From the IMG/VR virus record IMGVR_UViG_3300003690_000096, positions 1 to 27,929 of that record: DNA of 27,929 bases; one strand, written 5' to 3'. Made by a program: the position numbers and the translations under genes. The notes beneath the pieces were generated by a model. It was not told where the DNA came from. It searched no databases and saw only the letters and a program-made list of their open reading frames with translations. Origin of the DNA: a virus. This document shows positions 416 to 22,836 of the stretch, one piece after another; the stretch's first letter is position 1, and each line of letters begins with the position of its first letter.

Positions 416-3400
416 TTACTGACTCAGCAGGATCGCGTCACGCAAGTGCAACGGCAGTAGTTCAATCTGCTCGCGCAACGCGCGCATTTCTTTCAGCATC
501 TCGCCGTCGTCACCCCCAGTCAACCCACCACCAGGGCCAAGTGGAATGATGGCTTCCTTGCCGTGTAGCATTACGGGCGTGCCGCTTCCGAAGTCGCCCA
601 CCAGACCATGCCTGCCCGACTCCATATCAAGTTCGTCGCCGATGTCACCGCCGCCCGTTGTCGTGATCTTGCGCTGGACATTGACCGTGACATCAACATC
701 CTTGGGGATGTTTTGCAGCCCGGTGTTGATCCCAAGGATGGCGTTGATCATTTCCTCCAGCTTCGTGACCACTTTACCAATTGCCGTTTCGACCGCTGAC
801 CAACCGGTCTTTTGCTTGCCTTCTAGTGCCCCGGCTTCGCGTGCTTGGTCGATGAGTTTCTGCGTGTTCTCGTCGATGGGGATGCCTAATTTCTTGTGCG
901 CTTCGATCATCAGTTTGATCGAGTCGCCCATCATGAGAAACGCCTGTTGTTCAGTAAATCCTGCATCGGTCAGCTTCTCAAACATCCGCAGCCCCTGCCG
1001 CTCCATCGCGGCGAGGGTGTCAGCGTTCAAACTCCCGGTGCGTGACAACGCGAGAATGGTGTCATCCAGCGCCTCGGTTGCTTGAACCAATGTTTCGTTT
1101 TGGCTGATGCGTTCTTGGAAGTTCGATAGCTCCTGAATCGCCACGTTCTCTGACGTGATACCGAGGTCTTTCTGCGCCTGTATCAATGCTAGGATAGCGG
1201 GACGCGTTTGCTTTACGGCTTCGGTGAAACTTGTTCCAGCCTGAAGTGACGCTTCAAACGCAGCGACAGCCACCAACCCCAGGTCTTCCAGTTCGTCTTT
1301 GCTTTTCTTGCCGAGTTCCTGCTGCTCTTGGAGCAATACGTTAAGACGCTCCTCAGCCGCCGCGAACTCGTCGGTCCCGACAGTTAGCTCGGCGAGCTTC
1401 TCGCGCTGTTCATCGATTAGACCATTCAGGATTGCCGCTTCTTCAAGCGTCGGTCCGAATAGTGCAGCCAGTCCAACCGAGGCGAGCTTTGTTTGCTCGG
1501 CCACGAACTGCATCATCTCGCCGGACACAACTCCGAATCTGTTGGCGAGTTCTATCATTTCGAGGAACGACTCACCGGCAATTTCCCTCGTCTCTAAGAT
1601 CGCATCAGAGATCATCTTGAAGGCTGAATCAAACTCCGTTGACACTTGCTGCGCCGTAAGCTGACCGGTGTCGATCATAACGAACAGGTCACGGACCTTC
1701 GCAATGGTTTTTTCCAACCCAAACGTCATCACGCCACCGGCTTCGGCGATGATCTCCGTGACGTGCATCATCATTGCCGCGATGTCTGACGACACGGTTT
1801 CGCGGGTCTTGGCTATCGCGTTGGCTAACCCTTCAGACATTGACACGCCCCACCGCTCCGCTGTCTTCGTCACTTCTTCCTGTACCGATGGCCCACTGAA
1901 CAATCCACCGATCCAACCGATCAATGGTCCAGCTAACGCGCCGATGGCTGCACCGATAGGACCGGCCATACTTGCGATCCCACCCATGATCTTACCGGTG
2001 CCTTCATCGCTAAGGAGAGTCTTTCCCCACGCCTCCCCTAATGAGCCGCCCATCATTGAACCAGCCTGTGTGCCTAGCGCCTGCATTGCACCGAAGATGC
2101 CGCCGCCACCCTTGAAAGCATCAATGACAGTTCCAGGCAATCCTTTAATAATGTCCTTGAATCCTTCTGTGATATTTCTTCCGAACTCTAGACCAAACGT
2201 AGTGAACGTCCCGACCGTCCATGTTGGAAGTTTGGGTTGGTCGATCTTGGGTGTAACAAGCCACATGTCACCAGCCCTGAACCAATCGTCTGGAGGCGTT
2301 GGCATCGTTAATTGCATACCGGCGAGATGAGCAGAAAATAAATCCACCTCGTCTATGGACGCATTAAAGAGGAAGGAAACCTCGCCCAACGCATCACTGA
2401 CTGTCTCGCCTAACCGTGGAGTGAGTTGTTCATACGCGCGAACCACGTCCCCAATGACAGCCTTGTTCGCCCTTTCCTCAACACTTAAACCGGCCCATTT
2501 TTGTTCGAGGAATTCCAAGTCCTCCATCGCTTGTCCAAAACCCAGGTTCTTGATAGCCGTCTCTAATTCTTCATTAACTGTCACCAGTTCAGCGAGTTCG
2601 TCATTCGTTCCGCGGAGCATTTCTGGCAACGTCTCCAGTGTTTCAGCAAGAGCGTCCTCAGCCGAGGTGACATCACGGATGCTTAACGAGGCTATTTCAT
2701 TTGCTGAGTCTAAGTTATAAATCGACACAGCATTCATGTCCATGCGATCTGTCACGCGATCAACCTTAGCCGCTACTTCGTCAAACATGGTGGGGAGTTC
2801 TTCACCATAGTCAGAGTACGCCAGCAACGCCCGTGTCGCGGAGTTTTCTTGCCTGTCTGCGCTATCCTCTGAGTCGTCAGCAAACGCATTGATGGCGTCC
2901 TGGGCCTTTTTTATTTCATCCCTGTAATGCTTTGAAACTCCACCGGCTGTATCACCCATCTCCTCTAGTGCTGTTTGCACATCGGCCATTGTGTCTATGT
3001 TTGTTCGTTCCTCATCGTCCAAATCCATCCACATCTGCTCAAACACGGATACTGTGGCACGCGCCGTCAGGACGCCATCACGTAATTCTTCTACACTCTT
3101 ATCAAAACCATATATGGCATCGTCATGTTTTTTCATCAAACGGCCCATCCAAATAATGGCCGCACCAATCGCTACAGTAATCCCAATGGGACCGGTGATA
3201 GCTTTCCAAGCGGTTTTTGCGGACACCGACACCGCCTTGAGTGAGAGAGCGAATCTCGATGCGCCCGTCGTGCCCTTACCGAAGACAAATGCCAACGCAC
3301 CAATGGAAATCGTTAACTGACCGGCTATCATAAGGAAAGGACCAGCCGCTGCCAACAAAGCAATAAAGGCGAGCGCACTCCCTTGTACGGACTTCGGTAG

Positions 3401-4582
3401 TGAAGTAAATGCAGGGACCACGGTGTTCGATATGAAGTTCGCCACCTTCGTCAGTTTCGTGATGAACGTCGTGAGAACCGGAGCAAGTTGCTCACCGATA
3501 GTGATCCACATTCCTTCGGCGGCGGATTGCAATTTGATGAAAGCACCCTTCAACCCTTCCATCTGGATCTTGGCAATCCGCTTGGCGGTCCCGCCTGAGT
3601 TTCTTAATTCCTCCGTGAGATGGGTAATCGCATCGGCTCCACGTTCCACCAACGCAGCCATTGCCGGACCAGCACGCAGCCCGAACAACTCCATCATCTT
3701 GCCGGTTTGCTCGGCGTGTGGTTCCAGTTGGCGAACGATATCATCCAGAGGCAACAATCGACCAGCCGAGTCAGTCGCAACAACACCAAACTCCTCCATG
3801 ATCTTCGCGCCTGCTGCGGTAGGCGAGAGAAGTTTGACAATGGCTCCACGTAACGCGGTGCCGCCCATCGTTCCCTGGAACCCGGCGTCGGCCATCAATG
3901 ACATCGCGGCGGTGGCTTCCTCAAACTCCACGCCTGCCGACTTAGCCACCGGCCCCGCGTAGCGCATGGCGTTTCCCAACTGGGTGAGATCGGTATTCGC
4001 CATCGTGAAAGCCTTCGCCATCACGTCCGACACGCGACCAATATCAGTAGCCTCGAAACCGTACCCACGTAATGTCTTCGCCGCAATATCTGCCGCCGCT
4101 CCCACGTCCATCATCCCCGCCGCTGCGAGGTCGAGGGTGCCCGGCATAGCATCAATGATTTCTTTGGTGTTGAATCCAGCGAGGGCGAAGAACCCCATCG
4201 CCTCGGCTGCTTGCGACGCCGAGAACATGGTGGTCGAACCCAACTCTCTCGCGATGCCTTCTAAGGCTTGGAGATCCTTACCAGCCGCGCCACTAATGGC
4301 GCGCACCCGGTTCATGTTGGATTCAAATGAGGCGAATGACGTAGCGGCTTTGATGCCGAACGCCACAATCGGGAGAGTTAGTCCTGCGGTGAGATTGACA
4401 CCGGCGTTTCTGGCGCTGCCGCCAGCCGCCATCATTTTCTTGCCAGCGGTTTGTACTTTCGCGCCAGCGGCTTGTGACTTCTTCGCAAAGTTATCGAACT
4501 GTTTTCCGGCAGCGGTCAACTTCGCGCTCATCTTGTCGCGAAGTGCGATGGTGGCTTCAACAACTCCAACGCTGACGGCCAT
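416..4582 (-). CDS. Tail tape measure protein (TP901-type)
   Basis: At 1388 residues this is the longest gene in the window and sits directly after the tail assembly chaperone frameshift pair. It sets tail length and is normally ejected during DNA delivery. The N-terminal about 60 residues are Ala/Lys/Gly-rich and helical. Residues of about 75-400 resemble the PhageMin_Tail/TP901 core, with motifs such as FASFESNMNRVRAISG, GSTTMFSASQAAEAMGF and GGTALRGAIVKLLSP. Hydrophobic segments lie near 395-445 and 460-480, and a Gly/Ala-rich one (SMAGPIGAAIGALAGPLIGW) lies further on. The C-terminal part holds helical, Glu/Gln-rich stretches and ends in a region with GLVGDFGSGTPVMLHGKEAIIPL. The start ATG at 4582 lies 11 nt after the stop of the frameshifted chaperone. 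The long length and lack of sheath genes suggest a long non-contractile tail. Confidence 0.95.
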   Translation of the reverse strand: MAVSVGVVEATIALRDKMSAKLTAAGKQFDNFAKKSQAAGAKVQTAGKKMMAAGGSARNAGVNLTAGLTLPIVAFGIKAATSFASFESNMNRVRAISGAAGKDLQALEGIARELGSTTMFSASQAAEAMGFFALAGFNTKEIIDAMPGTLDLAAAGMMDVGAAADIAAKTLRGYGFEATDIGRVSDVMAKAFTMANTDLTQLGNAMRYAGPVAKSAGVEFEEATAAMSLMADAGFQGTMGGTALRGAIVKLLSPTAAGAKIMEEFGVVATDSAGRLLPLDDIVRQLEPHAEQTGKMMELFGLRAGPAMAALVERGADAITHLTEELRNSGGTAKRIAKIQMEGLKGAFIKLQSAAEGMWITIGEQLAPVLTTFITKLTKVANFISNTVVPAFTSLPKSVQGSALAFIALLAAAGPFLMIAGQLTISIGALAFVFGKGTTGASRFALSLKAVSVSAKTAWKAITGPIGITVAIGAAIIWMGRLMKKHDDAIYGFDKSVEELRDGVLTARATVSVFEQMWMDLDDEERTNIDTMADVQTALEEMGDTAGGVSKHYRDEIKKAQDAINAFADDSEDSADRQENSATRALLAYSDYGEELPTMFDEVAAKVDRVTDRMDMNAVSIYNLDSANEIASLSIRDVTSAEDALAETLETLPEMLRGTNDELAELVTVNEELETAIKNLGFGQAMEDLEFLEQKWAGLSVEERANKAVIGDVVRAYEQLTPRLGETVSDALGEVSFLFNASIDEVDLFSAHLAGMQLTMPTPPDDWFRAGDMWLVTPKIDQPKLPTWTVGTFTTFGLEFGRNITEGFKDIIKGLPGTVIDAFKGGGGIFGAMQALGTQAGSMMGGSLGEAWGKTLLSDEGTGKIMGGIASMAGPIGAAIGALAGPLIGWIGGLFSGPSVQEEVTKTAERWGVSMSEGLANAIAKTRETVSSDIAAMMMHVTEIIAEAGGVMTFGLEKTIAKVRDLFVMIDTGQLTAQQVSTEFDSAFKMISDAILETREIAGESFLEMIELANRFGVVSGEMMQFVAEQTKLASVGLAALFGPTLEEAAILNGLIDEQREKLAELTVGTDEFAAAEERLNVLLQEQQELGKKSKDELEDLGLVAVAAFEASLQAGTSFTEAVKQTRPAILALIQAQKDLGITSENVAIQELSNFQERISQNETLVQATEALDDTILALSRTGSLNADTLAAMERQGLRMFEKLTDAGFTEQQAFLMMGDSIKLMIEAHKKLGIPIDENTQKLIDQAREAGALEGKQKTGWSAVETAIGKVVTKLEEMINAILGINTGLQNIPKDVDVTVNVQRKITTTGGGDIGDELDMESGRHGLVGDFGSGTPVMLHGKEAIIPLGPGGGLTGGDDGEMLKEMRALREQIELLPLHLRDAILLSQ

Positions 4583-4593
4583 GATGGTCTTCT

Positions 4594-5150
4594 TTATCGG
4601 CGTCTAGCACGCCGTTTCGATGCCCGATCCTCCTCGCGTAATGACTTCAGAAGCGGGTCAACGTAATGCGCCGGGAATGCCATATACTCAGCCCATGACC
4701 AACGCATTCGCCTCATGAGGGCGAGATCGTTTTGGATTTCTTTTTGGTACGCTTTGCTTTTTTTTTCTCCACTAATGCGCTTTCGTGGTCATCAATGGCG
4801 CTGTCAATGATATCGAATAATTCGCTATGGAATGATTCCAGCGTGGCACGCGTCACCGGGAGCTTCTTGTCATTCTCGTCAGCGAGTGACCAATCCAGTA
4901 GGTAGGCGCGACACCGCGCAAACGAATACTCGGTCCATTCTAGCTTCGCTTCAGGCGGCGCACTCGGTTCGGAATCCTTGGTTCGCACCGGTGCCGTGAC
5001 AATGCTAATGTCTTTCATCATGCGCCGTTGCTCGCCCACACTGAGGTACTTCTTGACGCGAATCCAAAACGGATGCGTCTCGTCCTCGTTGGTTGTCCAC
5101 TCCAGTTCAATCTTGACATCTTCCGGTTCCACCACCCACGGATTACTCAT
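4594..5150 (-). CDS. Tail assembly chaperone, -1 frameshift product (GT-like)
   Basis: Translation starts at 5150, follows the short chaperone frame to the A9 tract (4766-4758 on the minus strand), then moves to the -1 frame and runs to a TAA at 4596-4594. The extension reads about 53 residues including YQKEIQNDLALMRRMRWSW and AEYMAFPAHYVDPLL. A conserved-looking Trp/Tyr-rich segment like this is typical of the T domain of lambda gpG-T-like chaperones, which bridge the tape measure and tail tube subunits. The frame has no good start of its own and fills the otherwise unexplained gap between the short product and the tape measure. The total is about 185 residues. Frameshifting is inferred from sequence and position; its efficiency is unknown. 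Confidence 0.85.
4713..5150 (-). CDS. Tail assembly chaperone, short product (G-like)
   Basis: This 145-residue acidic protein is placed immediately before the tape measure, where siphophages encode the G-type tail assembly chaperone. It starts MSNPWVVEPEDVKIELEW and has a Lys-rich tail (EKKKAKRTKKKSKTISPS) encoded by and after the A9 slippery tract. The ATG at 5150 overlaps the stop of the upstream small gene by 4 nt (ATGA), so translation is probably coupled. The short form is made when ribosomes do not shift. In lambda-like systems excess G coats the tape measure while GT recruits tube protein. Function is assigned from synteny, length and the frameshift arrangement rather than strong sequence recognition. 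Confidence 0.85.
   Translation of the reverse strand: MSNPWVVEPEDVKIELEWTTNEDETHPFWIRVKKYLSVGEQRRMMKDISIVTAPVRTKDSEPSAPPEAKLEWTEYSFARCRAYLLDWSLADENDKKLPVTRATLESFHSELFDIIDSAIDDHESALVEKKKAKRTKKKSKTISPS
4758..4766 (-). other. Programmed -1 ribosomal frameshift site (A9)
   Basis: On the minus strand the zero frame reads GAG AAA AAA AAA GCA, so a tRNA-Lys pair can slip back by one base anywhere on the nine-A tract. The -1 frame continues open to 4594 and encodes a T-domain-like segment. No clear downstream stem-loop was seen within the next 40 nt. Confidence 0.85.
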
Positions 5151-5470
5151 CGCTGCTCCCCCTTAATGATTGTCGGAATGTGACCCGCCTCAAAGTCTAG
5201 GCGATCATCGTTCTCCGGTGCGCGCCATGTTACAACACCTTCCCAGATCCATGTATTGCCGCTGATGTAAAAATACAGATCAAGCGGCACCCGCGATACC
5301 CACGGCTCGGATGTAGATACCACGGAAGCTGTGACGTGGAAACGAGAAGGTGCGGCACACTCCACCACCCACGATCCAAGAGTGACGGCGGTGCGGTACT
5401 TGTACCGCAACACGCCGCCACGCCCCGATATGCGGACGTTAGGTTGCCGCTGTCGCTCTGCTGAGATCAC
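5147..5470 (-). CDS. Small conserved tail-region protein
   Basis: This 107-residue protein begins at a GTG (5470) and overlaps the end of the upstream tail-tube gene by 32 nt in the +1 frame. It ends in an ATGA overlap with the chaperone gene. The segment VLRYKYRTAVTLGSWVVE followed by a beta-rich stretch and a Trp-rich end (GNTWIWEGVVTW) resembles small uncharacterised proteins encoded between tail tube and chaperone genes in other siphophages. No catalytic motif is visible. A fusion to the preceding gene by +1 shifting at its stop (ACC TAA C) is possible, but the upstream protein already looks complete, so a separate coupled gene is preferred. Confidence 0.75.
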   Translation of the reverse strand: MISAERQRQPNVRISGRGGVLRYKYRTAVTLGSWVVECAAPSRFHVTASVVSTSEPWVSRVPLDLYFYISGNTWIWEGVVTWRAPENDDRLDFEAGHIPTIIKGEQR

Positions 5471-5852
5471 CGGCAGGCTGAATCGTCAACGGTGCATCCA
5501 GTAGATCCCCAACCGATCCACCCTGTGGATTGTACGACTCGATGACGCCAATCCCTGAGTAGATCGGGTTGATGGCCGTCGAACAGATGTTCTGCGGCCT
5601 GATCTCAACACACACCGTTGTGCCAACCAACGAGAACAGCGTGGCATCTACGGCAGCAGCCGCATAGTCCTGGTGGAACGTAACATCCACGGACCAATTC
5701 TTCAGGCCACCTTTGTTGATGCGCGTGCTGTCACCCATCGCTGTCTCGTCTTGCATTTCCGAGGCATAGTTCAAGCTGACCTCGGACGCGAAAGAGGACA
5801 TATTCACGGCATTGATTTGGAGAAACGCGTTCGTGTATACCAGAGTCGCCAT
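5439..5852 (-). CDS. Major tail tube protein (paralogue B)
   Basis: This 137-residue protein shares an N-terminal pattern with the gene just upstream: YTNA near the start, then a Y-A-x-E-M-Q-D segment, then GDSTR-x-N-x-GGL, then D-x-TLF-x-LVG. The C-terminal GGSVGDLLDAPLTIQPAGDLSRAT segment is typical of compact one-domain tube proteins of the gpV/HK97 gp6-like beta-sandwich type, which stack as hexamers around the tape measure. The length suits a complete tube subunit, so this is probably the true major tail protein. ATG 5852 lies 11 nt after the stop of the preceding ORF. Confidence 0.85.
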   Translation of the reverse strand: MATLVYTNAFLQINAVNMSSFASEVSLNYASEMQDETAMGDSTRINKGGLKNWSVDVTFHQDYAAAAVDATLFSLVGTTVCVEIRPQNICSTAINPIYSGIGVIESYNPQGGSVGDLLDAPLTIQPAGDLSRATAAT

Positions 5853-6509: not shown

Positions 6510-6905
6510 TCACCCCGTGGACAGGTCTTTGTAGGCGAGGAAGTTGACCGCCAACAGTGACCGCTCAGACACATCGCGCTCAAGAAAAAACGGAACCTGC
6601 GTTGCCGAAACCCAGGAATAACGCGTCGAGTTGATCGTGCGTTCGCTTAACCCATCCAGCAAATTCATCACCGTCTGCATCCCCAGTCGTGCCGTTGCGT
6701 AACTGGCCGACCGCCGAATCACCTGGACCCCAGCCACCTCCAGCGTGGCGGTTCCCGGCCCACTGGACATCGCATGGATGGGTCCAAGACCAGCCGTCTC
6801 GGTCAGCAGGAACGCGTCATCCGGCTGCTCGGGAAGCTTCGCTTTGTAGATCGTGGTGGTCACCGACCCGGTGGTCAGCAGATCCTTGATATCGTCCAGA
6901 ATCAT
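6510..6905 (-). CDS. Tail terminator-like / minor capsid protein
   Basis: A 131-residue protein, between the HK97 gp10-like gene and the tail-tube genes. This is where siphophages place the tail terminator, which caps the tube after the tape measure sets its length. It begins MILDDIKDLLTTGSVTTTIY and contains a VQVIRRSASYATARLGMQTV helix-rich stretch followed by beta strands ending FFLERDVSERSLLAVNFLAY. That alternation fits the alpha/beta fold of terminator proteins (Gp17/minor capsid family). The start overlaps the upstream stop by 4 nt (ATGA). Assignment rests on synteny and general fold pattern. Confidence 0.75.
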   Translation of the reverse strand: MILDDIKDLLTTGSVTTTIYKAKLPEQPDDAFLLTETAGLGPIHAMSSGPGTATLEVAGVQVIRRSASYATARLGMQTVMNLLDGLSERTINSTRYSWVSATQVPFFLERDVSERSLLAVNFLAYKDLSTG

Positions 6906-10138: not shown

Positions 10139-11401
10139 TTACGGTGACCACGTCACGCCGGTCAGCATCGATACTGACTTGTCGTGACGCAACCCTAGGT
10201 CATGCTCAGTGATGGCACGCACAACCGTCTGGTCAAGACTGAATGCCGCCTGCACGCTGGACCCATCGTGGTAGGCCGCTTCCTGTGACGAGTCCACCAA
10301 CAGTCCCATCGACTCGCCGATGAGTACCTGCGCGAAGTCCACCAAATACACCTCGGACTCGTCGTTGTTGCCGCTGCCCGTGGTGTCCAGCGTGATCGGC
10401 ACGTTCGTCGTAACGCCAATCGGCCAACCCCACAACGTGCCACGGATGATCTCATCGCGGAACGAGAAGTAGCCGTTCGCGTTCTGGATGGTGGCGAGCT
10501 TCTGCTCGGTGCGCGGTGCCATGATCCAGCCCGGTGTGATCATCGGGATGTTCGCGCTCTTGAGCTTGACCACCAACTGACCCAAGTCATCCGTGATGTT
10601 CGCCAAGTTGACCGTGGTGTTGCTGGCGATCTTCTGGTCAGCCACGCACCAGTTCAGCAACCCCTTGGGCGTGGCATCGGTGCCTGCGCCTCGGATGAAC
10701 GACTCGTCTTCCTTGGTTGCCATTGATGCCACAAGGTCATCCCGCACAATGGCGTCGGCTGACGGGCTACTGTAGCGCAGCAAGTCATTGGAGATCGGCG
10801 TCAACACAGCCAACTTCTTAAACGTCAGGGTGAGTTGACCAAACGACTCCTCCGACTTACCTACGTTGACATTCTCTCCGATGTATGACGCCGATGCCCC
10901 GGTTGCGATCTTCGGGTACTTCAGCGTGCCGGTCGGCATCTGCACCGTTCGCGCACCCAACCGCCTGACAACAGACTGCGCGCGCAGCAGTTCGATGACC
11001 TCGTTGGAGAACTCGGTTGGCACCAGGAAACCACCAGCCGTCGCATCCCCAGCCGCGAGCGCCTTCTGATGCTGACTCGCCACCGCCGTGGCGAGATCCT
11101 CATCGCCCCATCCCCGCAAGATGTCCACGATTCCGTCTTGGCCCATCTTGTTGAACTTGGCCGCAGCCATCGCGCGCACAACGCGCCCGAACGCGATCCC
11201 CGGTGCCCGTTTCGCCCTCGGCGGCTCACTGGCAGTCGTCTCCAGCAATCGCTTGGCCCACGGTCCATTCGGATCGGATGCGACCTTCTCGATGTTCTCG
11301 CGGACGATCTTAGCTACGTCCGCTCCGACCTGATCTTTGATCAGGGGAAGGGCCGTCTCCTTCACAAAGTCAGCGAGTTGGTCCTTGGTCATGTTGCCCA
11401 T
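10139..11401 (-). CDS. Major capsid protein, HK97 fold
   Basis: A 420-residue protein with a helical N-terminal delta-like region (about 1-125, many Lys/Glu/Ala) followed by TAGGFLVPTEFSNEVIELLR. This is the characteristic start of the mature HK97-fold shell domain. Downstream hallmarks are MPTGTLKYPKIATG, YIGEN, the LAVLTPISNDLLRYSS stretch (E-loop/P-domain region) and a SFIRGAGTDATPKGLLNW motif. The preceding gene encodes the maturation protease, and the N-terminal region is the likely scaffold removed during maturation. The start has a strong AGGAGG ribosome binding site. The protein should be abundant in virions. Confidence 0.95.
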   Translation of the reverse strand: MGNMTKDQLADFVKETALPLIKDQVGADVAKIVRENIEKVASDPNGPWAKRLLETTASEPPRAKRAPGIAFGRVVRAMAAAKFNKMGQDGIVDILRGWGDEDLATAVASQHQKALAAGDATAGGFLVPTEFSNEVIELLRAQSVVRRLGARTVQMPTGTLKYPKIATGASASYIGENVNVGKSEESFGQLTLTFKKLAVLTPISNDLLRYSSPSADAIVRDDLVASMATKEDESFIRGAGTDATPKGLLNWCVADQKIASNTTVNLANITDDLGQLVVKLKSANIPMITPGWIMAPRTEQKLATIQNANGYFSFRDEIIRGTLWGWPIGVTTNVPITLDTTGSGNNDESEVYLVDFAQVLIGESMGLLVDSSQEAAYHDGSSVQAAFSLDQTVVRAITEHDLGLRHDKSVSMLTGVTWSP

Positions 11402-11419: not shown

Positions 11420-13273
11420 TTAGTCAATACGCCCACGCATGGAATTGATCGCGGCACGCACCTGCGAACCCACTACCTCGCCGATGGTGTCATTCAACCC
11501 AAGACGCAATGCCGTCATCACGTCTTCCTCGTTAAACTCCCCGATTGTTTCCGCGTCATCGAACTGGAAAAACACCGCGTCGGTTGGAGCCGGGTTCTCA
11601 GCCTGTTCACCGGTCAACGCGTCCAGCTTCGATCCGAGACGGTCGAGTGCGTCCAATACCGGAACCATGACATCATGAACCGGGTCACCAGGAGAGGGAG
11701 AGGGAGCAACCACCACCCCGCCCGGTTCTGACTCGGTTGCCATTGCCGATACGGTAACGAGTGCGACAGCCTCGTCCTCGAAACCAAAATCGTCAAGTAG
11801 ATGTGCAAGGTGATCCGATGTCAAACTGCCCTCGATCTTCGCCATCAGCTTGGCGCGCGCTTTACAGTACGCAGACCACCCGGCTCCATCTCGCTCCCAC
11901 GGCGCTTCGCGGTCGAACTGCCGGTAGTGGCTTGCGAGATGCCGCTTCACCGCGCCGACATCCGCGCTCGGGAGTTGGGTTGCATCCAGAAATGCCGCCG
12001 CTGATGCCACCCCACGCCACACCACATCACCGCTGGCTTTGTGGTGGGGCAATTTCATTTCGCCGAAGTTCTCAGGCTCACGTGATTCGGCCCAGGCGAA
12101 ATGCGTGGCGATGGCTCGGCGTTCGGCAGCGGACAGATCACCCCAAGTGTCAGATGTGAAATCTCCAAGGGTCGGCTTCTCCCACGCCTCACTCACCGGC
12201 GCTTCGCCGAAGCCGCTTGGATTCGGTGGCGTGACACCCTTCGAGATCGCGTCATCGTCCACGCTCTTGTTGTCCCCATTCACAGCGGTGTACTGGAACG
12301 TGTTCTGGAATTCGTCCACGTTCCTGATCGTCTCTTTCACCGCGACCTTGATGTCATTCATCGCCTTCCGAATGACATCCAGAAAATCATCAAGCTGATC
12401 CCTGACTGGTTGCTTGGCGACCGGCTCGGTTGCCGGTTTGATCACAGACTCGTCGGGTGGACCGCTGACGGGCTTCTCAGGCACGCTCACGTCGTCCGTA
12501 AGCGCACCGAACCCGGCCAGGGTGTCCTTGGCCCACTTGGTGATCAACTCCACGTCAGCGGCCTTCACGCCAGCCGACATCAGCGCGCCGGGATTCGCTG
12601 GAACCGGCACCACGCTGAACTCAAGCAATTCCTGCTTCTCGAAGTCCACGCCACCGCGCTCCTCGTTGAACTCGTAGGTCAACGGTCTGAACCCGACAGA
12701 TGCCCCACGCAGGAATCCCTGCTTCAGCATCTGGTACACCTGCTCGGCTACGGGATTCAATCCGGCGTCAGCGAACTGCGCCTCGGCGACCAGCGTGTCA
12801 CCCACTTGCGTCAAGCTCGTTGTGCGCGCCACCGGCAGCGAATCGTAATCGTGCGCGAACAGCACCACCGGATTCTTGAGGTAGTTGGTTGTGTCCCATC
12901 CGCTCGCGTTGATCACGTCCTTCTCACGGTCAGCCGATCCGGTCGTGATGACGAACTTGATCGTGCGATCTTCACCGGGCTGGATCTCGGTCACGAACTC
13001 CTTGCGGAGCAACACATCAGTCGGCGCTTGGCCGGTTGCCACGAACGAGGTACGCCAATCGTCTAGAGGAAACAAGCCGGGTTCCTTCTCGCTCATCCCA
13101 TCCTCCCGGTACTCACAGAATCCCTGATGCTCATCGGCCATGATTGCAGCCTCGGCACGGCGACACGCACCCAGCGAATCGAACTGACATCTGCCGCGTA
13201 AGCCGTACTTCCATTTCCCATTAGCGCATCGGTAACACGGCATAAAAAAAACGCGCGCACGGCTCATCGCCAT
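11420..13273 (-). CDS. Prohead maturation protease with extra C-terminal domains
   Basis: A 617-residue protein. The HK97/U35-type protease domain spans about residues 85-245: KFVITTGSADREKDVINASG, NPVVLFAHDYDSLPVA with the likely catalytic His141, and FLRGASVGFRP with the likely Ser192. The N-terminus has a Cys cluster (Cys13, Cys16, Cys29, Cys37) that may bind zinc. Residues of about 360-470 form a second conserved-looking domain (ENFGEMKLPHH, VWRGVASAAAF, VKRHLASHYRQF) often attached to phage proteases. The C-terminus is acidic and could act as scaffold. Start choice is open: 13273 is the longest, the family-like N-terminus MPCYRC begins at 13243 right after a T8 tract, and an ATG at 13096 has a strong GGGAGG site. 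At 617 residues it is much longer than a simple protease. Confidence 0.88.
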   Translation of the reverse strand: MAMSRARVFFMPCYRCANGKWKYGLRGRCQFDSLGACRRAEAAIMADEHQGFCEYREDGMSEKEPGLFPLDDWRTSFVATGQAPTDVLLRKEFVTEIQPGEDRTIKFVITTGSADREKDVINASGWDTTNYLKNPVVLFAHDYDSLPVARTTSLTQVGDTLVAEAQFADAGLNPVAEQVYQMLKQGFLRGASVGFRPLTYEFNEERGGVDFEKQELLEFSVVPVPANPGALMSAGVKAADVELITKWAKDTLAGFGALTDDVSVPEKPVSGPPDESVIKPATEPVAKQPVRDQLDDFLDVIRKAMNDIKVAVKETIRNVDEFQNTFQYTAVNGDNKSVDDDAISKGVTPPNPSGFGEAPVSEAWEKPTLGDFTSDTWGDLSAAERRAIATHFAWAESREPENFGEMKLPHHKASGDVVWRGVASAAAFLDATQLPSADVGAVKRHLASHYRQFDREAPWERDGAGWSAYCKARAKLMAKIEGSLTSDHLAHLLDDFGFEDEAVALVTVSAMATESEPGGVVVAPSPSPGDPVHDVMVPVLDALDRLGSKLDALTGEQAENPAPTDAVFFQFDDAETIGEFNEEDVMTALRLGLNDTIGEVVGSQVRAAINSMRGRID

Positions 13274-13338
13274 GCTGCGCGTTCAAAACTCCCGCAGCGG
13301 GAACGTCAGATTGTCGTCAGCCCAGTGCCAACGCTGGG

Positions 13339-13367
13339 ACTATGACGATCAATTAACAACTTGTCAA
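13339..13367 (-). promoter_or_regulatory. Leftward sigma70-like promoter for capsid operon
   Basis: On the minus strand TTGACA (13367-13362) is separated by 17 nt from CATAGT (13344-13339), a perfect -35 with a 4/6 -10 box. Predicted transcription would start near 13332, about 60 nt before the protease start. A C9 tract lies just upstream of the -35 on the plus strand (13368-13376). Confidence 0.55.
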
Positions 13368-13379
13368 CCCCCCCCCATG

Positions 13380-13413
13380 AAAAAAAAGTTTACGCAAGCC
13401 TATGGCCTGCGTA
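13380..13413 (-). terminator. Leftward terminator upstream of capsid promoter
   Basis: On the minus strand TACGCAGGCC-ATA-GGCTTGCGTA forms a 10-bp stem (one G-U pair) at 13413-13391, followed after three bases by TTTTTTTT (13387-13380). It would stop leftward transcripts arriving from the 13.4-14.1 kb region, insulating the capsid operon promoter just downstream. Confidence 0.6.
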
Positions 13414-13442
13414 CAACCAACAACGTACCATCAGCAAAACAT

Positions 13443-13470
13443 CAACCCGTCACAACCCGTCAACCCGTCA
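13443..13470. repeat. Three CAACCCGTCA direct repeats (iteron/operator-like)
   Basis: The decamer CAACCCGTCA occurs exactly at 13443, 13453 and 13461 (the last two overlap by 2 nt), followed by a degenerate GCGCGTCAA. Such close direct repeats are typical of protein-binding arrays. Confidence 0.65.
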
Positions 13471-13659
13471 GCGCGTCAATGGAACCGGGTCGCAATTAAC
13501 GTATGACCAATGCAAATTGACAACGGAATATCCAGACATGTACCAAATAAGGCAGGCCGACCGGAGACACTCCAGGCGGAGAACTTGAGTCTGCGCGTCG
13601 TGTTGTTCTTAAAAATCATACAATTTTCTCTCGCTGGTTTCATTGGTTCAAGTTGGCAA

Positions 13660-13677
13660 ATTGAACCTAGGTTCAAT
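13660..13677. repeat. 18-bp perfect palindrome, operator-like
   Basis: ATTGAACCTAGGTTCAAT is a perfect palindrome centred on CCTAGG. A further half-site GGTTCAA lies at 13645-13651, so three copies of the TTGAACC heptamer sit within 32 bp. This is typical of a repressor operator, though it could also be the first hairpin of the downstream array. Confidence 0.6.
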
Positions 13678-13714
13678 CCCGAACACAACGCTCCTGCGTA
13701 ACCTGCTGGGCATC

Positions 13715-13763
13715 GGTTCCAACTCGGAACGGTATGGGTACCTAAGCACGCCGAGTTGGAACC
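13715..13763. repeat. Inverted repeat, 13-bp arms
   Basis: GGTTCCAACTCGG (13715-13727) and CCGAGTTGGAACC (13751-13763) are exact inverted copies around a 23-nt loop containing GGTACC. No U-tract follows, so it is not a simple terminator. Confidence 0.8.
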
Positions 13764-13790
13764 ACCATCCACACGTACGGGTAACACGGC

Positions 13791-13842
13791 TTCCGTACAA
13801 CCTTTCCTCGCGTACGCGCACAGGGAAAAAGGTTGTACGGAA
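13791..13842. repeat. Inverted repeat, 15-bp arms
   Basis: TTCCGTACAACCTTT (13791-13805) and AAAGGTTGTACGGAA (13828-13842) are exact inverted copies around a 22-nt loop containing CGCGTACGCG. This is the longest stem of the array. Confidence 0.8.
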
Positions 13843-13885
13843 CCCATGCGTCCCGTACACGGTGGCTCCAGGCACGATGAAATGC

Positions 13886-13922
13886 TTTCTGCCCAAACCT
13901 CAACCCCATAGGTGGGCAGAAA
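13886..13922. repeat. Inverted repeat, 10-bp arms
   Basis: TTTCTGCCCA (13886-13895) and TGGGCAGAAA (13913-13922) pair exactly around a 17-nt loop. Confidence 0.75.
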
Positions 13923-13960
13923 CAGAAACCCGGCACCCCGACGACACTCCTGCGTAGGAC

Positions 13961-13989
13961 GTTGAGCGTGTGCAGGGCAACCGCTCAAC
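13961..13989. repeat. Inverted repeat, 8-bp arms
   Basis: GTTGAGCG (13961-13968) and CGCTCAAC (13982-13989) pair exactly. This is the last stem of the array. A direct repeat CTCCTGCGTA (13691-13700 and 13947-13956) brackets the stems between 13715 and 13922. Confidence 0.65.
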
Positions 13990-14062
13990 TGTCGGACGCA
14001 GCACGCAGCGCCATCTCGATCTTGGCCGCAACTTGCTTGTGTCCAACCTGGACATCAAAACA

Positions 14063-14117
14063 CCCAATGAATACGGGGTTAAAATAATCTTATTTATTTT
14101 ACGAATATTCTTGACAT
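14063..14117 (+). repeat. 55-bp direct repeat, left copy (promoter UP region)
   Basis: This block matches 22281-22335 without gaps at 50 of 55 positions (differences at 14068, 14078, 14079, 14101 and 14109). It consists of GAATACGGG, an AT-rich run (AAAATAATCTTATTTATTTT) and GAATAT, and ends in the -35 box TTGACAT. The AT-rich part sits where an UP element would. The two copies flank the plus-strand accessory operon. Confidence 0.85.
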
Positions 14118-14139
14118 CAGTGTATGTAGGACGTAATAT
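14111..14139 (+). promoter_or_regulatory. Promoter P1 of rightward operon
   Basis: TTGACA (14111-14116), 17-nt spacer, TAATAT (14134-14139). The spacer holds the octamer TGTAGGAC (14125-14132) shared with three other promoters in this window. An AT-rich UP-like element lies upstream. Transcription would start near 14146. Confidence 0.8.
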
Positions 14140-14193
14140 ACATGCATGACACGGGCACTGAAGACGGCACGGCGCAACCAGGAGACGAACTAA

Positions 14194-14313
14194 ATGGCTA
14201 TCGTATTTATGGCAATCGGCGAGTTGGTTCTTGGTTTGGGATTTGTGGTTGCATCGTTGGCGCTTCCGGCCTTCTTGCTAAAGGCGGCTGTTCCGTTTTT
14301 GATGGGCCGATAA
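14194..14313 (+). CDS. 39-residue hydrophobic membrane peptide
   Basis: ATG at 14194 follows a GGAGA ribosome binding site (14181-14185) and encodes a 39-residue peptide beginning MAIVFMAIGELVLGLGFVV. Residues of about 3-35 are almost entirely hydrophobic, interrupted by Glu10 and Lys30, so a single membrane span is likely. It is the first gene after promoter P1 and is followed by promoter P2. Choosing this frame over an overlapping one that begins at 14142 rests on the ribosome binding site and the coherent membrane-protein composition. A role as a small inner-membrane effector is possible, but no family is recognised. Confidence 0.6.
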   Translation: MAIVFMAIGELVLGLGFVVASLALPAFLLKAAVPFLMGR

Positions 14314-14366: not shown

Positions 14367-14621
14367 ATGCTGAACAGCCCGAACGCCAACGTCAACCGGT
14401 GGAGCAACGGGTTCGTCCTCTACGCGACACATTCCGATGGACGGGCTGCGTACATCCGCGAGTACCGCGCGCCCGGTTGGGACACGCGTCGGCGGACGGT
14501 CTACCAGACGAAGCTATCCACGGACACCCATCCGTGGCCGAATCCTCGTCACCCGCGCGCCATCGGCGTGACCAAAAAGAACGGATGGATCGTGGAGAAC
14601 AATAATGCCAAATCTGCGTGA
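14367..14621 (+). CDS. Hypothetical protein, first gene of accessory operon
   Basis: An 84-residue protein beginning MLNSPNANVNRWSNGFVLYA, rich in Arg, Asn, Thr and aromatic residues, with a YIREYRAPGWDTRRRTVY segment. It starts about 9 nt after the predicted P2 transcription start with no ribosome binding site, so initiation would be near-leaderless. It overlaps the following acetyltransferase gene by 17 nt. The composition suggests a small beta-rich basic protein. No family was recognised. Confidence 0.6.
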   Translation: MLNSPNANVNRWSNGFVLYATHSDGRAAYIREYRAPGWDTRRRTVYQTKLSTDTHPWPNPRHPRAIGVTKKNGWIVENNNAKSA

Positions 14622-15072
14622 AGCCACGATGGGCGACATGGCGATGATGTTTGACTGGTGCAACGATCCAGGGATGCGAAAATATTCGCACAACTCTAGT
14701 CCGGTGCCTTGGCTCGATCATGAAAAGTGGTACGTCGCCAAGATGGACGAGAACCCGAAGCGTGTCTGGATCGCGTGCGAGGATGATCACGCGATTGGGT
14801 ACGGGCGCGCCGACGCCAAGGTCAACTACCGCGCACTTGTCAGCGTGGGACTAGACGAGGTGTGGCGTGGTCTGGGTGTGGGGACATGGCTAATCCGGCA
14901 AGTCACCGACCGACTGGTGGCCCAAGGACTCACGCCTGTAGCTCACATCTATCCGGCGAACAGCGCGTCGATCCACGCGTTCGTTGCCGCCGGGTATGTG
15001 CATCACGGATTGATTGGAGACAAGTACCATGAGTACAGATACGCATCAGACGATGCACGAGTACTGGGCTAA
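14605..15072 (+). CDS. GNAT-family N-acetyltransferase
   Basis: A 155-residue protein with the GNAT layout: N-terminal REATMGDMAMMFDW helix, the central beta strands VWIACEDDHAIGYGRAD, and the acetyl-CoA binding loop RGLGVG (residues 88-93, R/Q-x-x-G-x-G pattern). A C-terminal NSASIHAFVAAGYV segment (119-132) is typical of the last helix and strand. The N-terminal half (RKYSHNSSPVPWLDHEKWY) resembles acetyltransferases of amino-sugar pathways such as PseH-like enzymes, which fits the neighbouring cytidylyltransferase and aminotransferase genes. The likely reaction is acetyl transfer from acetyl-CoA to an amine, possibly on a sugar nucleotide; the substrate is unproven. Confidence 0.88.
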   Translation: MPNLREATMGDMAMMFDWCNDPGMRKYSHNSSPVPWLDHEKWYVAKMDENPKRVWIACEDDHAIGYGRADAKVNYRALVSVGLDEVWRGLGVGTWLIRQVTDRLVAQGLTPVAHIYPANSASIHAFVAAGYVHHGLIGDKYHEYRYASDDARVLG

Positions 15073-19292: not shown

Positions 19293-20159
19293 GTGACTTT
19301 TGAATCCCTGGATCGATTCGCGTCCTTGATGCGGGAGTTGCCGTTCAAGTTCGTGAAGTCGATGCCGCGTTCACCGCACTTCTACACCCTGCGGAAGTGG
19401 TTGCCAGACGGTTCGGTGTTCGACTGGTGCGTGGAGTTTATCAAGACCGAAGGGCACACCGAGCAGTTCATGAACCTGCCCTACACGAAGGTGCATGTGA
19501 ACGGGCATCACTACTGGGTCACTGACTCGCTGTACGAGGATGGTTCTGTCCTGATCAATCGAGCCTTGGCTAATTACCACACGGATTTTTGTGCGTTGGC
19601 CGAGCGGTATGACACGCTCTTCTGTGATCGCACCAGCCTGGATGAGAACACGACCGTGATGGAAAGCATCCGTGGTGAGAATCAGCATGAGGATGTGCGC
19701 GAGTTTGGTGGCGTACGTGACCAGCGGGTTCTTGACATTGGCGCAGGGACTGGTTTGCTCTTGGATTATTTCGGGTCCGAGATCGCGGTGGAAGACTACG
19801 TCGCCGTGGAGCCATCCAAGCCGATGGGGAAACAGTTCTGCATCAAGCATCCGTTGTATGTGGGGTGTCTGATTCCGACCATGTTTGAGAACTTCGCGCA
19901 TGGCAAGTTCGATCTCGTGGTGTCCACTTTTGGGGCGATCAGCTACGTGCGCCCAGAGTACGTGTCCCGCGTGGTGGAGATGCTGAATCCTGGTGGCCGG
20001 TATTTCCTGATGTTCTACCTGGAGGGATACGATCCCGTGTCATGCGTGACGACCGGCATGGCGTCTCACCATTTCACTGGTGGGGAGCAGCGCCTGCTTG
20101 ATGGCGGCGACTGTCGCACATACAGCAATTTCATGATCTGCGAAGGCAGCATCCCGTGA
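19293..20159 (+). CDS. Class I SAM-dependent methyltransferase with N-terminal accessory domain
   Basis: A 288-residue protein starting at GTG 19293, immediately after the previous stop, with a GGTGGAG ribosome binding site. Residues of about 20-125 form a domain (KSMPRSPHFYTLRKWLPDGS, HHYWVTDSLYEDGSVLINRA) of a kind I recall beside IbrA/IbrB-like genes. The methyltransferase core follows: motif I RVLDIGAGTGLLL (145-157), AVEPSKPM as the acidic motif II, FDLVVSTFGAISYV as motif IV, and LNPGGRYFLMFYLEGYD as the motif V region. No DPPY-type or PCQ-type DNA methylase motif is visible, so the target could be a small molecule, RNA or modified base. Confidence 0.82.
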   Translation: MTFESLDRFASLMRELPFKFVKSMPRSPHFYTLRKWLPDGSVFDWCVEFIKTEGHTEQFMNLPYTKVHVNGHHYWVTDSLYEDGSVLINRALANYHTDFCALAERYDTLFCDRTSLDENTTVMESIRGENQHEDVREFGGVRDQRVLDIGAGTGLLLDYFGSEIAVEDYVAVEPSKPMGKQFCIKHPLYVGCLIPTMFENFAHGKFDLVVSTFGAISYVRPEYVSRVVEMLNPGGRYFLMFYLEGYDPVSCVTTGMASHHFTGGEQRLLDGGDCRTYSNFMICEGSIP

Positions 20160-21301
20160 AAATCTTCCTTGAACACAACGTGTACGAAGGCGCACTGGCG
20201 CGGATTCGATATCTGTTTAACGAGTTCGAGAATCTGTATGTGAACTTCTCTGGAGGGAAAGACAGCACGGTGCTGTTGAACTTGACGATCCAGGTCGCCA
20301 CGGAGATGGGGCGTCTTCCGGTCAAGGCGATGTTCCTCGACCAAGAGTGCGAGTGGGAATGTGTGATCGAGTTCATGCGTCGCACCGCGAAACGTGACGA
20401 GGTGGAGTTCAGTTGGTTGCAGGTTCCCACCAATATGTTCAACGCCAGTTCTGAGATCATGGCGTGGAATCGAGCCTGGGAAGAAGATGCCGAAGACAAG
20501 TGGGTGCGCCCAAAGGAACCGGACTCCATCCATGAAAATGTCTACAAGGAGTACCGCTTCGACGATCTATTTGAAGGGCATCGGCGGTATCACCATCCGA
20601 ACGAACCCTGCGTGTCGCTGGCCGGTGTGCGCGTCGAGGAAAGCCCAGCCAGGAAGATGGGGCTGACTTCCTATCCCACGTACAAGCATCTGACGTGGGG
20701 CGCGAAAAAGGATGTGAAGCGCGGACACTACGTGATGTATCCGCTGTACGACTGGTCATACACGGACATCTGGAAAGCAATCCATGACGGCGGCTGGGAC
20801 TATTGCCGGTTGTACGATCTGGAATACAAGTACGGGCAGAACGCGCGCGACATGCGCGTGTCCAATGTGCATCATGAGACGGCCCTTCAGAACGTCATGT
20901 TCTTGCAGGAGTTTGAACCCAAGACCTTCAACCGGATCACGAAACGTCTGTCGGGGTTGCACGCCGCTGCGACTATCGGGATGCGGTACATCCGGCCACC
21001 GCGTGAGTTGCCGTTCATGTTCAGTGACTGGCGCGAGTATCGAGATCACTTGCTGCACAATTTAATTCAGGACGAAGACATTCGTGAACGGATGCGAACA
21101 CAATTTGAAAAACACGATCACATCTTCGATGAAGAAATCCATGACGAGTTGCGGAAAAAACAAATCGCCTGCATCTTGAGCAACGACTATCACGGCAGCG
21201 CGATGAATACGTTCAGGGCGGGACACGGGAAATACTTGAAGGCGGGGAAGTTCGCGGGTGGGAAGTTCAAGGGTGGCAAGCTGCGGAGCAAACATGCCTG
21301 A
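20156..21301 (+). CDS. ibrA: IbrA-like PAPS-reductase-family (PP-loop) protein
   Basis: A 381-residue protein starting at GTG 20156 with a 4-nt overlap. NFSGGKDSTVLLNL has the PP-loop SGGKDS (residues 32-37) that binds and cleaves ATP to adenylate. The following MFLDQECEWECVIEFMR and the C-terminal VSNVHHETALQNVMFLQEFEPKTFNRI match the DUF3440 IbrA-type branch of the PAPS reductase family. The family also resembles DndC, which works in DNA phosphorothioation, but true PAPS-reductase catalytic Cys motifs were not recognised. The C-terminus is Gly/Lys-rich (GKFAGGKFKGGKLRSKHA). It is paired with an IbrB-like gene 0.26 kb downstream. The gene symbol is by resemblance. Confidence 0.85.
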   Translation: MKIFLEHNVYEGALARIRYLFNEFENLYVNFSGGKDSTVLLNLTIQVATEMGRLPVKAMFLDQECEWECVIEFMRRTAKRDEVEFSWLQVPTNMFNASSEIMAWNRAWEEDAEDKWVRPKEPDSIHENVYKEYRFDDLFEGHRRYHHPNEPCVSLAGVRVEESPARKMGLTSYPTYKHLTWGAKKDVKRGHYVMYPLYDWSYTDIWKAIHDGGWDYCRLYDLEYKYGQNARDMRVSNVHHETALQNVMFLQEFEPKTFNRITKRLSGLHAAATIGMRYIRPPRELPFMFSDWREYRDHLLHNLIQDEDIRERMRTQFEKHDHIFDEEIHDELRKKQIACILSNDYHGSAMNTFRAGHGKYLKAGKFAGGKFKGGKLRSKHA

Positions 21302-21566
21302 CGGAATTTTGCTTGCGGACGGATTAGGGGAGGCGTTGATCGGCCTGGGCCGTCGTTGTGGTCAGCCGGACGTGGCGGTCTACTCCATCCCGAAAGCCAT
21401 CGCGCTGCTCGTACGTCGTGACGAGATGAGCGAGGACGACGCGCGGGAGTATCTGGAGGTCAACAGCATCGGCGCGTGGGTGGGTCCGGCGACGCCGATC
21501 TGGGTGGAAGCGATGACGCTGGATGAGATACACGCCTACGCAGACAAGGAGTGGCGCGAGCGATGA
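21294..21566 (+). CDS. Small conserved protein between ibrA- and ibrB-like genes
   Basis: A 90-residue acidic protein starting at ATG 21294, overlapping the IbrA-like gene by 8 nt. The pattern LLADGLGEALIGLGRRCGQP, then VAVYSIPKAIALLVRR, then DEMSEDDAREYLEVNSIGAW and VGPATPIWVEAM resembles small proteins of unknown function seen in many phage genomes. It is probably an alpha/beta protein. The ATG is preferred over the longer upstream start at 21258, which would lie deep in the previous gene. It may assist the IbrA/IbrB-like pair; this is inferred only from position. Confidence 0.8.
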   Translation: MPDGILLADGLGEALIGLGRRCGQPDVAVYSIPKAIALLVRRDEMSEDDAREYLEVNSIGAWVGPATPIWVEAMTLDEIHAYADKEWRER

Positions 21567-22258
21567 AAATGGAGTTCATCCAATTCCAAGATGCCCTGGA
21601 GAAAATCGAGGAAGCCTTTGAACGTATTGATGATGATGAGTTTAGAATTGACGCGCTGAACTTTCTTCAAAGTCAGATCCGTAATCTCACGCCGCTCCAC
21701 GATCAACCCGTGAGTGGTGTGATGTGGGTGCCGCTTGAAAAAGTGGAAGCCAATGACTACAACCCCAACACGGTCGGCGCGCGCGAGATGCAACTGCTTC
21801 AGGTGTCCATCGATCACGATGGGTACACGCAGCCGGTGGTGACGATCCACGATGAGGAACGGGACGTGTATGTGATCGTGGACGGGTTCCATCGGTACTT
21901 CGTGATGAAGTCATACGAGGCACTCCGCACACGGACGCACGGCAGGTTGCCGGTGGTGGTGATTGACAAGTCCATCAATGATCGCATGGCGTCAACCATT
22001 CGGCATAACCGCGCGCGTGGCAAGCATTCGATAGATGGCATGTCCAGGTTGGTGTTCAAGATGCTCGACAACGGATGGGCTGACGCAGCGATCTGCAACG
22101 AACTCGGGATGGAAGCGGAAGAATTGATCCGACTGAAACACATCACCGGATTCTCCAAGCTGTTTGCGAACGTGGAGTACCGCAAGGCGTGGGTGGCACG
22201 TACCCAGATCAAACTGGCACACGACGCCGGTGTGAAGAATGTAGATTTCTTGCCGTAA
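21563..22258 (+). CDS. ibrB: IbrB-like ParB/Srx-fold protein
   Basis: A 231-residue protein starting at ATG 21563 in an ATGA overlap (alternative GTG at 21551). After a helical acidic N-terminus, the core reads DQPVSGVMWVPLEKVEANDY, then NPNTVGAREMQLLQVSI, YTQPVVTI, IVDGFHRYFVMKS and RMASTIRHNRARGKHSID. These are signatures of the IbrB/ParB-like family, with VDGFHR (106-111) in the nucleotide-binding loop. The C-terminal helical part (LGMEAEELIRLKHITGFS) is a helix-turn-helix-like spacer. IbrB works with IbrA in enterobacteria as a regulator of immunoglobulin-binding protein expression. In phages the role of the pair is not known. It is the last gene of the operon. Confidence 0.88.
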   Translation: MKMEFIQFQDALEKIEEAFERIDDDEFRIDALNFLQSQIRNLTPLHDQPVSGVMWVPLEKVEANDYNPNTVGAREMQLLQVSIDHDGYTQPVVTIHDEERDVYVIVDGFHRYFVMKSYEALRTRTHGRLPVVVIDKSINDRMASTIRHNRARGKHSIDGMSRLVFKMLDNGWADAAICNELGMEAEELIRLKHITGFSKLFANVEYRKAWVARTQIKLAHDAGVKNVDFLP

Positions 22259-22280
22259 AGTCTCGGCGCGCGCCAAAAAC

Positions 22281-22335
22281 CCCAACGAATACGGGCCTAA
22301 AATAATCTTATTTATTTTGCGAATATCCTTGACAT
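22281..22335 (+). repeat. 55-bp direct repeat, right copy
   Basis: Matches 14063-14117 at 50 of 55 positions with no gaps. Like the left copy it ends in a TTGACAT -35 box. The 8218-bp spacing exactly brackets the accessory operon. Confidence 0.85.
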
Positions 22336-22393: not shown

Positions 22394-22609
22394 ATGCTAA
22401 CCATGACACAGACGATGACCCGCGACGAAGCAGAGCATTTCTACACGTGGCTGGAGAACACGGTGGACATGGAAGATCAGCATGAGATCGAGCAACGCGT
22501 CCATCAGTTGATGCGCGCGAAGGGATTCCTGCGTGGGCTGGATTTATCGCGAGCGATCAAGGTTGCACACGACGAGTTGCGCTACACACTTTTACTGAGA
22601 GGGCGCTAG
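22394..22609 (+). CDS. Small hypothetical acidic/helical protein
   Basis: A 71-residue protein starting at ATG 22394 with a GAGGAG ribosome binding site, about 30 nt after the predicted P3 transcription start. It is helical with EHFYTWLENTVDMEDQHEIE and a C-terminal basic part (RAIKVAHDELRYTLLLRGR). It is the only gene between P3 and the convergent leftward block and is probably expressed early or strongly. Its stop codon overlaps the stop of the opposing gene. No family was recognised; it could be a small regulator or host-takeover protein. Confidence 0.7.
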   Translation: MLTMTQTMTRDEAEHFYTWLENTVDMEDQHEIEQRVHQLMRAKGFLRGLDLSRAIKVAHDELRYTLLLRGR

Positions 22610-22836
22610 GTGCGACGGTAGCCGCCTGCGTCAATACTGGAGAACACGCCGCGCACGGTGCCGGTGCCGGGATCGAACTTGACCGTGATCTGCACACCGC
22701 GCAAATCAGGCAAGCTGTCGAGGACAGCAGACCGCAGGTGCAACTCGTTCACAACCGCGCGCGCGATCAGATGCGAGGTGGTTGCCGTAGGCGTTGGCAC
22801 AGGTTCGGAGTCAAGCCCGCAAGATCGGAGATTCAT
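22606..22836 (-). CDS. Small hypothetical protein, last gene of the right-hand leftward block
   Basis: A 76-residue protein with an ATGA overlap to the upstream Rossmann-like gene, so translational coupling is likely. The C-terminal half (SLPDLRGVQITVKFDPGTGT) looks beta-rich. It ends tail-to-tail with the plus-strand gene at 22394-22609, with the two stop codons overlapping. No family is recognised. There is no intergenic terminator at this convergent junction, so transcripts from both sides would read into each other. Confidence 0.65.
   Translation of the reverse strand: MNLRSCGLDSEPVPTPTATTSHLIARAVVNELHLRSAVLDSLPDLRGVQITVKFDPGTGTVRGVFSSIDAGGYRRT

Follow-up and report, generated by a model that had tools for sequence, protein, structure and literature searches.

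What are five consecutive inverted repeats, each with a different stem, doing at the edge of an insertion among the head genes of a phage? The repeats lie in IMGVR_UViG_3300003690_000096, a linear virus record of which 27,929 bp were analysed here (the window, probably a fragment). The array is, we conclude, a strong and real feature that most probably represents a structured, orphan phage RNA, and we give a probability of about 0.5 to its being a leftward structured non-coding RNA of ~600-670 nt that ends near 13380.

Genomic setting of the array

The window carries a tailed-phage gene set on the minus strand, and ~9 kb of rightward-running genes separate the protease from a 76-aa gene:

416-4582, minus strand: tape measure
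10139-11401, minus strand: major capsid protein
11420-13273, minus strand: head protease
22606-22836: 76-aa gene, the far border of the ~9-kb rightward block that starts after the protease
24445-26796, minus strand: portal

This rightward cargo encodes FemAB-like and GNAT transferases, a cytidylyltransferase, a class-III aminotransferase, a methyltransferase, and PAPS reductase-like and ParB-like proteins. At 20156-22258 (plus strand), a PAPS reductase/DUF3440-like protein and a ParB_N-like protein are consecutive, the ParB-like protein lying downstream at 21551-22258; we take this pairing to resemble the IbrA/IbrB pair. The hairpin array stands at the left end of the cargo, an insertion that none of the examined relatives has. 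Most relatives have only ~120-160 bp ahead of the protease, and L004, the closest relative covering the array position (protease 70% identical), has ~0.7 kb, past the counterpart of the 76-aa gene.

The array could be the remnant of a mobile or recombining element, MITE-like or an attachment region. Its position, bordering on the left a 9-kb insertion not seen in the relatives examined, would suit this, as would a 62-bp AT-rich element that flanks the cargo genes in two directly oriented, 89% identical copies (14056-14117 and 22274-22335). We nevertheless regard such a remnant as quite unlikely: the proteins scanned included no recognisable integrase or transposase, neither the window nor the phage and plasmid collections yielded another copy of the array, and the 62-bp repeats, which lie immediately upstream of rightward TTGACA sites, resemble promoter elements.

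The inverted repeats

The array had been predicted to comprise an 18-bp palindrome and four inverted repeats with perfect arms of 13, 15, 10 and 8 bp, and all five were found where expected, with stem sequences that all differ from one another:

13645-13677, strand unassigned: palindrome plus overlapping 11-nt repeat, with three GGTTCAA/TTGAACC half-sites
13660-13677: 18-bp palindrome, 9+9 bp, no loop
13715-13727/13751-13763: 13-bp perfect arms, hairpin on the minus strand (13712-13766 fold: -26.8 kcal/mol, z -4.4)
13791-13805/13828-13842: 15-bp perfect arms
13886-13895/13913-13922, minus strand: 10-bp perfect arms (TTTCTGCCCA/TGGGCAGAAA), 17-nt loop
13961-13968/13982-13989: 8-bp perfect arms

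Five perfect repeats in 355 bp compare with a mean of 0.22 in dinucleotide shuffles (maximum 2; 0 of 500 reached five), which excludes a chance origin, and nowhere else in the window are such inverted repeats as dense. The 15-bp repeat is the core of a longer pair, 13775-13805/13828-13858, whose 31-nt arms are 84% complementary, and a second repeat (13645-13655/13657-13667) overlaps the palindrome to create the three half-sites. A parS-type centromere has little support: it needs repeated copies of one palindrome and these stems all differ, and the ORFs scanned showed no ParA.

Operator-like character is confined to the GGTTCAA half-sites at 13645-13677. The repeats might act as DNA, as regulator sites for divergent promoters, and these half-sites above all, as they directly adjoin a leftward promoter-like site (13643-13615) within a divergent control region. 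This we hold to be unlikely, because one protein could hardly bind the other stems, which differ in sequence, and because long-looped arms of 13-31 nt do not resemble operators. A scan for the 16-bp palindrome also found it in nine other viral contigs that have no common setting, mostly inside open frames rather than in control regions.

The original prediction further held that a direct repeat brackets most of the inverted repeats. Both copies of CTCCTGCGTA exist:

13691-13700, minus strand: direct repeat copy TACGCAGGAG
13947-13956, minus strand: direct repeat copy TACGCAGGAG

The core, CCTGCGTA, has a third copy at 13406, inside a terminator stem, and no further copies in the window. We place little weight on this triplication, because an 8-mer with three copies arose in a region of the same size in 87 of 1000 shuffles.

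Three tandem, iteron-like copies of AACCCGTC lie at 13442-13478, in the interval separating the array from the terminator. A replication origin built from these iterons (13444-13469) and the stem-loops would account for the three short direct repeats, for an AT-rich stretch, and for a minimum of cumulative GC skew near 14 kb. The skew, however, turns with gene orientation at both ~14 and ~22.5 kb, and the ORFs scanned, which are part of those in a window that is probably a fragment, yielded no recognisable replication protein. Together with the position of the region at the cargo edge among head genes, in an accessory insertion missing from the relatives examined, this makes an origin highly improbable.

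Coding potential

The claim that no coding frame explains the array proved right in substance. A minus-strand frame of 170 aa (13476-13988), the longest across the array, is open, but its codon use is not that of the phage (score -0.12), and it has no match in Pfam, in PHROGs, or by tblastn against phages. Frames across the array scored -0.06 to -0.18, versus +0.11 to +0.25 for the 13 yardstick genes on which the codon score was itself trained; genes outside the training set (e.g. 4713-5150, 6510-6905 and 14605-15072) scored +0.10 to +0.20. Codon use and the absence of homologues thus rule out a coding explanation.

Terminators and promoter-like sites

A leftward terminator was expected beyond the array, and a stem with a T8 tract is present there, among several promoter-like sites:

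13380-13413, minus strand: intrinsic terminator with a 10-bp stem (13391-13413) and T8; the stem holds the third TACGCAGG (13378-13420 fold: -17.7 kcal/mol, z -5.1)
13615-13643, minus strand: weak promoter-like ATGAAA-17-TATGAT (9/12) at the left edge of the array, a consensus match only
13339-13367, minus strand: promoter-like TTGACA-17-CATAGT of the head operon, downstream of the terminator
14111-14139, plus strand: promoter-like TTGACA-17-TAATAT of the cargo operon, with an AT-rich element upstream

The only leftward promoter-like sites found by the scan were those at 13643-13615 and 13367-13339, both left of the array, and none lay to its right. If the 13643-13615 promoter is real, a transcript might start there and the array would be upstream DNA, as the operator explanation has it. 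The TTGAC promoter-like sites at 14111, 14324, 22329 and 26856 (all plus strand) and at L004:2639 (plus strand) carry a GTAGGAC motif just downstream of the -35, inverted at the 14324 site; being common to the window and L004, the motif could be a shared operator.

The minus strand also has, at 13250-13290, a strong hairpin that looks like a terminator and carries a T-run; it falls within the opening codons of the protease frame and is possibly an attenuator. The hairpin is kept in L004:3255-3300, and our reading of both folds indicates one two-sided change of G-C to A-U. Upstream of the protease, L004 also has the hexamers and spacing of the 13339-13367 site, as read by eye.

These elements raise the question of whether the array acts in cis, as a 5' leader of the head operon: its folded RNA would alter RNA polymerase as it passes and let it read past the two terminator-like hairpins ahead of the protease. 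The put antiterminator RNA of phage HK022 works in this way, its stem-loops changing the polymerase so that it reads through terminators before phage genes. The array resembles put in that its stem-loops lie on a strand running into terminators before phage genes, and two strong terminator-like hairpins (13391-13413 and near 13250-13285) do stand in series on the same strand between the array and the head genes. It differs from put in being far larger, in standing before head genes, and in being missing from L004. A role in cis seems improbable to us, given that the head-operon promoter-like site at 13367-13339 sits between the first terminator and the genes, and that L004 retains both this site and the second hairpin without the array.

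RNA folding and strand preference

Folded as RNA, 13640-13995 gave z -6.5 on the plus strand and z -6.1 on the minus strand; both strands fold well because the features are inverted repeats in DNA. The minus-strand stretch 13726-13875 (z -7.6) was the strongest of the 371 stretches in the window, scanned in 150-nt steps, and the step at 13751 ranked first of 12,098 by GC-corrected energy across 57 non-redundant sequences (612 kb) from the phage and its relatives. The array thus shows the structure beyond chance that is looked for in a large structured phage non-coding RNA. The main predicted parts are as follows:

13378-14000, minus strand: proposed leftward non-coding RNA of ~600-670 nt, drawn from the fold and the 3' terminator, with an approximate 5' end (about 13995-14050)
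13772-13861, minus strand: large hairpin with 31-nt arms and a 15-bp perfect core (13770-13863 fold: -56.2 kcal/mol, z -8.1)
13938-13995, minus strand: 5' domain, a three-way junction with the 8-bp repeat hairpin and a small hairpin on a TACGCAGG copy (-24.5 kcal/mol, z -2.2)

The minus-strand fold of 13378-14000 reached -254 kcal/mol (z -5.4), although 13426-13725 within it was unremarkable in the 150-nt fold scan. Two positions of the large hairpin that mismatch on the plus strand pair as G-U on the minus strand, and the minus strand formed 128 base pairs (12 G-U) versus 117 (6 G-U) on the plus strand. Pair count, the G-U surplus and the T8 terminator would therefore favour the minus strand, if modestly.

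A structured non-coding RNA, a multi-operator switch and an origin had all been put forward in the original prediction. The first fits best, the differing stems speak against a single multi-operator switch, and the origin fares poorly. We favour a structured non-coding RNA because of the very strong fold, the minus-strand preference, the terminator at the expected 3' end and the lack of a coding signal. Such a transcript would start near 13995-14050, remain untranslated, fold into a series of strong hairpins, and end at the terminator 13391-13413 with its T-run near 13380. Its gene would then have the rightward cargo promoter on one side and the promoter of the head operon on the other. The RNA would most likely be a stable structured product of infection; we infer its transcription, strand and 5' end, as well as its action in trans as a phage RNA.

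Relatives

The array had no match by blastn in phage and plasmid collections, and neither blastn nor nhmmer found it in any fetched relative. It is missing from the ~50-kb relatives, and 12 whole records yielded a single 17-bp match that we take as chance. Scans that see near-identical copies only found no homologue of the exact 15-bp stem pair in viral contigs, and an exact-pattern scan of the same reach for one 25-mer of the array found none in species genomes. A scan for CTTGACATTGTAGGAC returned 13 viral stretches in which no similarity to the array was seen, taken as mostly chance. The portal and the cargo FemAB-like protein as queries led to no related loci, and the capsid protein to none in species genomes. 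The 5-kb fragment of L004 retains the promoter-like site of the head operon and the protease-start hairpin but has no array, which could sit elsewhere in that phage.

The protease carries an N-terminal Cys-rich module, MPCYRCANGKWKYG (13130-13243, minus strand), common to L018-L025, whose match stops soon after it; in several of these loci, the module directly follows a tRNA-like sequence, as read by eye. In L066:10676-10815, before the protease, a partly conserved GGGTCGGTGTGGTGGTG stretch is followed by sequence that appears by eye to form a hairpin, and the stretch recurs in the same gap of L005, L008, L010, L040, L045, L069, L070, L077 and L078. Six of these pre-protease gaps were scanned and had no Rfam match.

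Comparison with known phage RNAs

No Rfam family matched by cmscan, either across the window at the gathering threshold or across 13270-14200 at E up to 5, where only sub-threshold miRNA models appeared. The proposed RNA is similar in length to GOLLD and ROOL RNAs, which are phage-encoded and heavily folded, as it would be, and whose function is unknown (ROOL env-120 has 659 nt and many GOLLD exceed 800 nt; PMC12286853). It differs from them in having neither an Rfam match nor homologues that show a conserved fold. GOLLD and ROOL are often, though not obligatorily, near tRNA islands, whereas the 27,929-bp window has no tRNA genes.

In ICP1, a phage without tRNAs, RNA-seq revealed an abundant ~800-nt transcript from the ORF-less interval between gp139 and gp140 (PMC7567579). 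Here too, a long RNA is proposed from an ORF-less phage interval with no tRNAs in the window, but transcription shown by RNA-seq in ICP1 is inferred for the array, and the array region has no DNA similarity to the phage collection. Any kinship would rest on resemblance in length (GOLLD and ROOL) or in setting (the ICP1 transcript). We suggest, tentatively and at well below even odds, that the array could represent a class of large ornate phage RNA not described before, with no relation to GOLLD or ROOL and with an accessory cargo module, not tRNAs, as its setting. If transcribed, it would bring a large structured RNA that belongs to no Rfam family, and that is located in an accessory module flanked by head genes, to the small number of such phage RNAs known so far, the functions of which are still to be worked out.

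Elsewhere in the window, the fold of 5476-5625 (minus strand) ranks second (z -5.1). Immediately downstream of it, frames 5439-5852 and 5147-5470 overlap in what may be a tail-chaperone frameshift region.
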